A stretch of 64,000 nt of DNA from positions 124,001-188,000 of the forward strand of contig LDXJ01000058.1 in NCBI GenBank assembly GCA_001029295.1, read 5' to 3'. Source of the DNA: Peptococcaceae bacterium CEB3. GTDB lineage: Bacteria > Bacillota > Desulfitobacteriia > Desulfitobacteriales > Desulfitobacteriaceae. Every line of letters starts with the position of its first letter. The stretch's first letter is position 1. The notes below the pieces were generated by a model. The model was given only the letters and a program-made list of their open reading frames with translations. It was not told where the DNA came from and did not search any database. The position numbers and the translations under genes are program-made. Positions 5,017-39,419 of the stretch are shown here, in pieces.

Positions 5017-5049
5017 CGGTCGTAAATTGAATAATGGATGAGTGATTCT

Positions 5050-5245
5050 TTCCCGAGGGAAGGAATTGAAAAGGGAAGTCAGTCGAAGCTGACGCGGTGC
5101 CCGCCACTGTAAAAGAGAGTTGACTCACAGCGTGTCACTGGGATTTTTGACCCGGGAAGACGTGGGTTGACGATGATCTTGAGCCAGGAGACCTGCTCAT
5201 TCAGAAGTTGCTGCGACCTACGGGAGTGTTAGGGGGTGGATTCGT
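5050..5245 (+). ncRNA. Cobalamin (AdoCbl) riboswitch
   Basis: The conserved core is present: GGGAAG, then GCGGTGCCCGCCACTGTAA (about 5094-5112), a GGGAAGAC segment, and the AGGAGACCTGC box near 5188-5198. It lies downstream of a consensus promoter and upstream of a terminator and a Ni/Co permease gene. In this family cobalamin binding normally promotes termination or blocks translation, so cobalt uptake would be shut off when B12 is plentiful. Confidence 0.92.
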
Positions 5246-28602: not shown

Positions 28603-28735
28603 CCTCTCATCTCTCAGAACTCATGTTCTGCAGGAATTAGCACCTCGTAGTCCGAAGCTCCATTAAAGAGCTCCCACCGACTACCGGTTGCCGGGCATCA
28701 TCGGGCCAGTCCCTCCGCCGCTCTTGATGAGTGGA
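28603..28735 (-). ncRNA. SAM-I (S-box) riboswitch
   Basis: The minus strand shows the S-box core in order: ATCAAGAG, GGCGGAGGGACTGGCCC, GATGATGCCCGGCAACC, a GTGCTAATTCC segment, and AGATGAGAG at the 3' end. It is followed by a terminator and metY. SAM binding favours termination. Confidence 0.94.
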
Positions 28736-38035: not shown

Positions 38036-38884
38036 TCACATCTGTCTCGGATATGACCCCAACAGCCGGATCGCGACTCGGTTGGTTTTCAAAACCCAGA
38101 GGGCCTCCTGCATCTCCGGCGCAAAGGCGTAACCGTCCACATCGATAAAGAAAACGTACTCACCCAGCCTGGCTTTGGCCGGGCGGGATTCAATCCTGGT
38201 CAGATTAAGCCCGCGGCTGGCAAACTCCTGCAGCACCCGGCAGAGAGAACCCGGGGAATCCTCAATGCGCAACAGAAGAGACGTCTTGTCCACCCCGGAT
38301 AATTCGCGCAAGCAATGTCCCAATAAGATGAAACGGGTGGCATTGTCCTTGTTATCCTGGACCCCCTGTTCCAAGCAATAAAGACCATATATATCCGCGG
38401 CCCGCCGAGGAGCAATGGCCGCCCAGGCTTGATCTGACCCGGCCACGATTCTTGCCGCCTCCGCCGTACTCAGACAAACGGCCTGGTCGGCTTGACTCAG
38501 ATGATCCTCCAGAAACTCCCGGCACTGGCCGAATCCCTGTGGGTGGGAATATACGCGCCGAATTTGCTCAAGCCCCACAGGCCGTGGAGTAAGCAGGCAC
38601 TGGCTGACAGGATGAAGAAATTCCCCATAAATGAGAAGTCCCTCGCTTTCCGTCACGCAGTCCAAGGTTGTACTCACCTGACCTTCGGTCGAGTTCTCCA
38701 GCGGCACAAAAGCCCAGTCGACTCGGCGCTCCTCGCACGCCTGGATAACTCGGGAAATCGTGGGAAAACCCTCCGCAGCAATCTCACCCTGAAAATCAAG
38801 CTTCTCCCGTTGCAGAAATGACCATAAGGCCTCTTCGGAGAAGCTTCCCTGAGGACCCAAATAGCCAATCTTTGTCCCTTCCAT
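38036..38884 (-). CDS. pheA: Prephenate dehydratase
   Basis: 282 residues. The catalytic domain begins IGYLGPQGSFSEEAL and holds VPLENSTEGQV and the active-site DNATRFILLG near residue 180; a C-terminal ACT domain (LLLRIEDSPGSLCRVLQEFASRGLNLTRIESRP) binds phenylalanine for feedback control. It converts prephenate to phenylpyruvate. AAGGAGGT precedes the ATG at 38884. It stands alone with a long T-box leader that carries two antiterminator modules. Confidence 0.95.
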   Translation of the reverse strand: MEGTKIGYLGPQGSFSEEALWSFLQREKLDFQGEIAAEGFPTISRVIQACEERRVDWAFVPLENSTEGQVSTTLDCVTESEGLLIYGEFLHPVSQCLLTPRPVGLEQIRRVYSHPQGFGQCREFLEDHLSQADQAVCLSTAEAARIVAGSDQAWAAIAPRRAADIYGLYCLEQGVQDNKDNATRFILLGHCLRELSGVDKTSLLLRIEDSPGSLCRVLQEFASRGLNLTRIESRPAKARLGEYVFFIDVDGYAFAPEMQEALWVLKTNRVAIRLLGSYPRQM

Positions 38885-38989: not shown

Positions 38990-39385
38990 ATAGAAAAAGT
39001 CCACGGTTGTTCCCCTTTGGGACGAAAACCGTGGACTTCCGTGTTACCACCCAATTTGGCCAAAAATGGCCCGCTCTCCAGGGTACCGAACGTACCAGAA
39101 TGAAACAAAAAGAGAGCCCTCATCCCTAAGGGACGAGAAGCTCGCGTTACCACCCTGCTTGGCAAAAATTGCCCGCTCAATAAAGGTACGGGACCAACAA
39201 TCCGATACCCCCTTCCTTTTAACGGGGAAGAACCGTTCCAGCCTACTTTTTCTTGTTCAGCCGACAGCTCAAGAGGGAACTTCAACCGCCGCCTCCTTAG
39301 AAGGGCTCCCAGTCAGCGACCCTTCCTCCCTGAAAATCAGCCTGCAGTCTACTTTACTCTGTCATCGCCTTTGCCTATGAAGTTT
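38990..39385 (-). ncRNA. T-box leader with two antiterminator/terminator modules
   Basis: On the minus strand, a stem I region (GATGACAGAGTAAAGTAGAC at about 39360) carries a candidate Phe specifier TTC near 39277-39279 within GAAGTTCCC. Then come T-box AGGGTGGTAACGCG (39143-39156) with terminator GAGC..GCTC and TCTTTTTG (about 39105-39143), and a second T-box GGGTGGTAACACGG (39039-39052) with terminator AAGTCCACGG/CCGTGGACTT plus TTTTTC (38992-39038). Each T-box is preceded by a GAGCGGGC..TTTTTG segment, so the module is duplicated. Uncharged tRNA-Phe is expected to allow readthrough into pheA. Confidence 0.88.
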
Positions 39386-39390
39386 AGTCT

Positions 39391-39419
39391 AGTGTAGCCC
39401 AGTTGCGTTCAGGTGTCAA
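39391..39419 (-). promoter_or_regulatory. Promoter of the pheA T-box transcript
   Basis: Minus-strand TTGACA (39414-39419) and TACACT (39391-39396), 17-bp spacer, overlapping the 3' end region of the neighbouring gene. Confidence 0.75.

Follow-up and report, generated by a model that had tools for sequence, protein, structure and literature searches.

One stem I and two discriminator modules: a partially tandem T-box leader of pheA and a possible strand exchange in its linker

Introduction

T-boxes of a "duplicated terminator-antiterminator" class were reportedly described by Vitreschak et al. in 2008. In the pertinent section of a review from 2020, the mode of action of partially tandem T-boxes is called unknown, and stem III, its flanking purines and the antiterminator are treated as the necessary and sufficient unit for sensing aminoacylation (PMC7583486). 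A sharper response has already been stated in print in a passage on double T-boxes (PMC9413887), and tighter or steeper control in one on tandem riboswitches (PMC9481103).

The leader described here lies in a stretch of 64,000 nucleotides from Peptococcaceae bacterium CEB3 (contig LDXJ01000058.1, positions 124,001 to 188,000), which is called the window in the following. An initial annotation of the window had noted two T-box sequences behind one stem I; the point absent from this first reading is how two discriminators can be served by one stem I and a single tRNA 3′ end. Comparative data suggest linker strand exchange as a route by which this could be achieved.

Anatomy of the pheA leader

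The tRNA-Phe T-box leader was located upstream of pheA at 39386-38990 on the minus strand of the window, to which all coordinates of the leader refer. It follows a promoter TTGACA-17-TACACT (39391-39419) with 10 of 12 consensus matches, 25 of whose 29 bases are the same in a congener, and transcription presumably starts near 39386. The regulated gene (38036-38884) encodes a prephenate dehydratase (NCBIfam PRK11898.1, 280.1 bits, cut-off 219). The same window contains a cobalamin riboswitch (5023-5214, plus strand, 115 bits) and a SAM-I riboswitch (28604-28733, minus strand, 84 bits).

Stem I and module 1 are covered by a full match to RF00230 (39374-39126; 107.4 bits, cut-off 93). According to the RF00230 alignment, stem I is present in a sole copy (39262-39374), and 107 of 115 bases (39374-39260) are the same in the congener. 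Its specifier UUC (39277-39279) complements the anticodon GAA of a tRNA-Phe gene (3′ end ACCA) found in the same genome and fits the downstream pheA as well, and the UGGU of both modules fits ACCA; the leader would depend on tRNA-Phe. Stem I is followed by stem II and the IIA/B region with CCGUUA (F-box) and a GGAAG strand (39211-39261, from the same alignment; 75 of 80 bases between 39259 and 39180 are the same in the congener) and by the linker hairpin L1 (39185-39210), in which GGUA and CGG of GGGUAUCGG (39210-39202) pair with CCGUACC (39191-39185).

The two T-box sequences which the initial annotation had seen downstream of the single stem I were both recovered on the minus strand, AGGGTGGTAACGCG at 39156-39143 and GGGTGGTAACACGG at 39052-39039. 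Discriminator 1 (39129-39178, UGGU at 39152-39149) and discriminator 2 (39018-39076, UGGU at 39049-39046) each consist of the purine string GAGCG, stem III (GGCC..GGCC in discriminator 2), AA and the strands A1 and A2 round a UGGUAAC bulge, and each module ends in a terminator with a U-run. Module 2 appears as a separate partial match to RF00230 (model 158-216, window 39077-39018, E 1.2e-4 in a genome search), and a 32-nt direct repeat common to both modules has 78% identity over a distance of 103 nt. The "GAGCGGGC..TTTTTG arm" which the annotation had ascribed to each module is indeed a repeated element, but the label of an antiterminator arm does not hold: the element corresponds to the purine string (GAGCG), stem III and AA, so the whole discriminator domain is duplicated. 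Since the part of the 2020 review on this unit regards stem III, purines and antiterminator as the sensing unit (PMC7583486), the duplication would comprise the whole sensing end.

That each module has its own terminator, as the annotation had it, is borne out by the folding energies. The terminator 1 region (39107-39143, hairpin 39143-39114, U-run) reaches -20.0 kcal/mol and the terminator 2 region (38994-39040, hairpin 39040-38995, U-run) -26.9 kcal/mol, and 0 of 200 shuffles were as good for each hairpin. The antiterminator pieces alone were no better than chance (55 of 200 shuffles as good for piece 1, 43 of 200 for piece 2). For the module 1 piece, the canonical antiterminator is the best predicted fold and is mutually exclusive with terminator 1, whereas the canonical pairs are possible in the module 2 piece, yet another fold is best there and terminator 2 is strong. 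In module 2, all 31 rows have A1 (GGG/CCC) paired, and for A2 the same holds in 99.5% of cells.

The two modules are connected by a spacer (39077-39106) with the copy-2 strand UCGGUACCC (39089-39081) and a local GGUAC (39096-39092), for which copy 2 and the 3′ strand of copy 1 are possible partners. About 30 nt separate U-run 1 from discriminator 2 and no further stem I match to RF00230 was obtained, in agreement with the single stem I of the annotation.

Conservation of both modules

A like leader precedes pheA in one congener of the same genus, where the T-boxes are 232 nt apart compared with 103 nt here. Between the two leaders, module 1 is 90.3% and module 2 89.5% identical, compared with 64.3% for the spacer and 59.6% for the 3′ leader; as module 2 keeps this identity despite a spacer difference of about 129 nt, it looks selected. 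When 73 genomes of the order were searched with a 32-nt stretch of module 2 (up to three mismatches), 38 gave matches; the family, represented by 45 of the genomes, accounts for 30 of these. The 31 of 40 matches that were inspected comprise 30 with loci, including the window and the congener, and one further match (L186); the nine left out are second copies in two genomes (G025, G029) and seven three-mismatch matches from another family of the order. A first module lies 104-233 nt upstream in every one of the 31, window and congener included, the search pattern favouring conserved module 2 sequence and making no selection for the first module. In several relatives the gene after module 2, read by eye, is aroF-like (DAHP synthase).

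Changes on both sides of a helix were counted against 500 shuffles. Terminator 2, with three such pairs and six cells, was matched by 0 of 500 shuffles in each count. For stem III of module 2, two pairs (120 of 500 shuffles) and nine cells (0 of 500) were found, and for terminator 1, where the 30 loci were used, two pairs (67 of 500) and seven cells (0 of 500). A1 and A2 of module 2 show very little variation and gave no covariation signal either way. Here as throughout, the sequences are related, and the counts are not exact probabilities.

The variable base of UGGN is the same in both modules in 92 of 118 tandem pairs, with 33% expected and 0 of 10000 permutations as high. Across the class, terminator 2 is on average only slightly stronger than terminator 1 (-20.8 compared with -19.3 kcal/mol); it is the stronger one in 67 and the weaker one in 43 of the 113 pairs (of 118) in which both were found. 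The sequence data give good support to a single stem I followed by two conserved modules in series.

The bulge combines AAC in the first module with ACC in the second in 22 of 118 pairs and the reverse in four, the sequences (loci L044-L160) being related. AAC instead of ACC as a marker of tandem first modules was dropped, because AAC also occurs in single T-boxes, which precede tyrS-, pheS- and proC-like genes as read by eye.

Distribution of the architecture

Genomes were scanned for two T-box sequences 76-136 nt apart (start to start) with a U-run between them; owing to the fixed T-box sequence and spacing, wider pairs such as that of the congener are missed. In one scan of genome contigs, the pattern was found in at least 117 stretches, among them one of Desulfosporosinus metallidurans (L091, contig 58, positions 276-373). 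It occurs in 26 of 45 genomes of the family, where the reversed pattern used as a control gave 0 of 45, and at least once in 47 of 398 genomes of the phylum. The partially tandem architecture is not rare but common. In 3 of 199 scanned loci (L069 4430-4615, L115 1547-1740, L284 265-440), three T-box sequences follow one another at distances below 170 nt.

Among 30 pheA loci, the tandem form is present in two, both of this genus, while a clear single T-box motif was found in five and nothing certain by regular expression in 23. The genome of the window has a second partially tandem T-box before a serC-like gene (L007, G000:C63:214759), with the T-boxes 135 nt apart, and a second pheA-like gene (G000:C61:56317-57138) that is 55% identical to pheA of the window; a regular expression search of 1.3 kb upstream of this second gene gave no T-box motif.

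Some other leaders deviate from the usual anatomy. Before an aroF-like gene (L195, about 360-500, G007), a discriminator and terminator directly follow a promoter-like sequence; no stem I was seen there apart from a weak end-to-end fit to RF00230 (35 bits), and this may be a headless T-box. Before a valS-like gene of the window's genome (L013, about 1480-1560), the RF00230 match covers only the antiterminator end (model 183-216), with no stem I. A purine-rich repetitive spacer lies between a T-box terminator and a pheS-like gene (L009) and is shorter in the congener.

Complementarity of linker and spacer across the class

Downstream of the IIA/B region, L1 is formed by GGUAUCGG of the linker and CCGUACC before discriminator 1, and a second GUACC-like strand lies before discriminator 2. 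In leaders across the phylum, the spacer before discriminator 2 often complements the 5′ strand of the linker and the L1 loop. As a test of the 9-nt strand by itself was not convincing for most of the 31 Phe leaders, the hairpin loop was then included and permuted partners were used as control. A recognisable linker strand was required, and the sets comprised 39 of 51 phylum leaders, 22 of 118 contig-scan leaders and 31 Phe leaders, with overlap in few leaders. All energies given here are computed and take no account of tRNA, kinetics or tertiary contacts.

The duplex of a leader's own linker and spacer was more stable than permuted combinations in the phylum set (-19.1 compared with -13.5 kcal/mol; 0 of 5000 permutations) and the contig-scan set (-19.1 compared with -13.0 kcal/mol; 0 of 5000), and also in the Phe set (-15.7 compared with -14.7 kcal/mol; 22 of 5000). 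The own spacer outranked every other partner in only 6 of 39, 3 of 22 and 1 of 31 leaders, respectively. When the own spacers were dinucleotide-shuffled, at most 5% of shuffles were as good in 30 of 39, 19 of 22 and 20 of 31 leaders. Among 192 leaders with non-identical sequence between the T-boxes, 179 were kept for a repeat with the whole linker, 149 for minimum-energy folds and 178 for the gain on joining the spacer. The repeat gave -17.5 compared with -11.5 (n = 105), -24.0 compared with -18.0 (n = 43) and -29.5 compared with -27.1 (31 Phe leaders). At least seven linker/spacer pairs are present in the minimum-energy folds of 30 of 40, 65 of 78 and 28 of 31 leaders, compared with 33%, 23% and 18% for shuffled spacers. 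The mean gain on joining the spacer is -10.1, -8.4 and -14.2 kcal/mol (43, 104 and 31 leaders) against -6.1, -4.6 and -5.7 kcal/mol for shuffled ones, and it exceeds all ten shuffles in 14 of 43, 45 of 104 and 23 of 31 leaders.

Part of this signal is explained by duplication. In 86 leaders (duplicates removed), the linker G/A and the copy-2 C/U combine as G:C in 44, G:U in 3, A:U in 14 and A:C in 0 cases, no copy-2 strand being found in the remaining 25, and linker GAUA goes with copy-2 UAUC. Copy 1 covaries with the linker just as copy 2 does, so the covariation alone could be due to duplication. Homology of the two copies as the whole explanation was rejected, because specificity persists with both conserved strands removed: for the L1 loop against the piece preceding copy 2, 0 (28 leaders), 2 (11 leaders) and 45 (23 leaders) of 5000 permutations were as good. 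The loop-only means are -4.6, -4.9 and -3.5, to which shuffled own pre-copy-2 pieces come closer (-3.5, -3.5 and -2.5). In leaders with copy 1, the long helix of linker and spacer is stronger than L1 in 27 of 31, 15 of 16 and 28 of 28 cases (duplex energies, loop cost excluded).

Leaders with other linkers were taken from the rest of the contig scan, as far as enough upstream sequence was available (93 leaders, many from Lactobacillales). Their mean of -18.7 compares with -15.3 for permuted combinations (sd 0.30, 60 permutations), with a median z of -0.85 relative to shuffles and the 5% level reached in 28 of 93; in the best of them, for example L104 (Lactiplantibacillus songbeiensis) and L147, the helix runs to about 15-16 contiguous pairs. 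The simple copy-2 motif was found in 12 of the 118 contig-scan leaders, and a close copy-2 strand is present in 30 of the 62 other-linker leaders with a simple L1 hairpin. In these 30, the L1 loop pairs in register at 60% of positions, and over its whole length in 12, compared with 44.5% in the permuted control (sd 4.6; maximum of 5000 permutations 59.7%). The exchange signal occurs in two unlike linker types, the GGUAUCGG type and the GNAGUUUA type of lactobacilli. As judged from sequence, the predicted linker/spacer complementarity is specific across the class, and the signal for the class as a whole is strong.

Linker and spacer of the window

In the window, GGGUAUCGG (39210-39202) and UCGGUACCC (39089-39081) can form nine contiguous pairs, and 0 of 300 shuffled spacers were as good in this short-strand test. 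A local hairpin GGUAC/GUACC competes with the pairing of linker and copy 2: of two states drawn by hand, L1 with the local hairpin (-38.6 kcal/mol) is 1.4 kcal/mol better than the simple swapped one (-37.2 kcal/mol). The best fold of the region concerned, at -52.2 to -53.3 kcal/mol, is a swapped one in which the local GGUACG is additionally paired with the copy-1 strand. Folded apart, the parts reach -40.5 and -6.8 kcal/mol, which leaves a gain of -6.0 kcal/mol on joining that was equalled by 25 of 300 shuffled spacers. The window (four pairs), the congener (six) and L205 (four) are the three of the 31 Phe leaders with fewer than seven linker/spacer pairs. The signal is thus mixed for the window, and a relay by exchange in the linker, for which the class gives good support, is no more than plausible in this member.

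A related leader shows a different arrangement of these strands. The aroF-like leader of the congener (L188, G001) has two modules, and its counterpart in the genome of the window (L191, G000) lacks module 1; there, the linker GUAUCGG has come to lie opposite the CCCGUAC that used to be copy 2, which interchangeable strands would permit.

Proposed mechanism and alternative explanations

The explanation that accounts best for these data, and which we consider moderately probable, is a partially tandem T-box with a serial double check and a handoff by strand exchange in the linker. A single stem I/II would read the anticodon of tRNA-Phe, followed by two modules of discriminator and terminator. 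Since pheA is reached only by RNA polymerase that has got past both terminators, each transcript would be checked twice for uncharged tRNA-Phe, which corresponds to a serial AND. During the first check, GGGUAUCGG would pair with CCGUACC and place discriminator 1 beside stem I and the bound tRNA. After passage of terminator 1, the spacer would emerge and its copy-2 strand, whose proposed partner is the 5′ strand of L1, would pair with this same linker strand and open L1. Module 1 would then be folded away, and the second check would take place with discriminator 2 presented to the stem I already used in the first. Transcripts that are past the first check are the only ones in which the long helix can form, terminator 1 being upstream of the copy-2 strand. 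The tighter or steeper control which the initial annotation had expected from two serial checkpoints is a reasonable inference, and the response may be sharper.

For the class, chances appear even that partially tandem T-boxes are strand-displacement relays, with the L1 loop and the 5′ strand as landing site for the spacer made after terminator 1, the first docking being dismantled and discriminator 2 put beside the single tRNA-bound stem I. If so, co-transcriptional strand exchange would hand one sensor domain from one decision point to the next, and the double check of a single bound tRNA would be explained.

Serial checkpoints could also work without a handoff, the tRNA 3′ end leaving discriminator 1 and finding discriminator 2 unaided or a second tRNA being bound there, while the complementarity merely folds module 1 away. 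This is rather unlikely, though it fits several observations: each module has stem III, flanking purines and T-box, and hence the sensing unit as outlined in a section of the 2020 review (PMC7583486), some tandem leaders such as L284 have no linker helix, and little separates the simple swap from the local hairpin before discriminator 2 in the window. Mere folding away, however, needs no match to the L1 loop, so the loop-specific complementarity, which in two sets far exceeds the permuted level and is seen again with other linker sequences, counts against it and for the handoff.

A single functional module, with the other left over from a duplication or acting as a fail-safe terminator blind to tRNA, is improbable. 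An altered bulge in the first T-box of one relative (G037, UGGUUUU) next to an intact terminator, the single module of the aroF-like leader of the same genome and the canonical antiterminator 2, which is not the best fold of its piece, speak for it; against it, both modules are about equally conserved relative to the congener with UGGU kept in both, both are kept in 31 of 31 inspected loci, and UGGN agrees in 92 of 118 tandem pairs.

A tandem of two full T-boxes with a stem I apiece is extremely improbable: such leaders are common in Bacillota according to the relevant part of one source (PMC12452182), but the roughly 30 nt between U-run 1 and discriminator 2 are too short, which refutes this arrangement here, and no second stem I was matched, nor was one found with RF00230 in the longer spacers, that of the congener included. 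Low-scoring end-to-end model fits in L183, L185, L188 and L195 (31-44 bits, 138-230 nt) are probably forced. A chance or assembly duplicate of the antiterminator, for which only the repeat itself speaks, is already refuted by its presence in the congener with a different spacer and in 31 of 31 inspected loci, the compensatory changes in terminator 2 and the reversed pattern in 0 of 45 genomes.

Comparison with known systems

The architecture belongs to a known kind, and the exchange element is new as far as the openly licensed literature goes: no description of linker strand exchange in T-boxes was found in openly licensed papers. Like the partially tandem T-boxes in the section of the 2020 review devoted to them, the leader has one stem I and more than one terminator/antiterminator module; what is added here to that section is a discriminator duplicated in full, stem III included, and the putative strand exchange between linker and spacer (PMC7583486). 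A relay of this type would bear on the question how partially tandem T-boxes act, which the same section leaves open (PMC7583486). The single T-box before pheA of relatives, for example in L190 (G004), also has UGGU, but only one T-box motif and one terminator were seen there.

With fully tandem T-boxes (trp, ilv-leu, thrS), as far as they are covered in the part of PMC12452182 concerned, the leader would share serial termination decisions on the same tRNA and the expectation of a sharper response. In contrast to these, which have a stem I and a tRNA per unit, one stem I would serve two decisions here (PMC12452182). A relay would also offer a natural design for multi-step RNA switches sharing one aptamer. 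Pseudo-cooperative tandem riboswitches, in the passage describing them, likewise have two expression platforms in series with a digital output expected, but they use an aptamer per platform, whereas in the pheA leader one stem I would serve two (PMC9481103).
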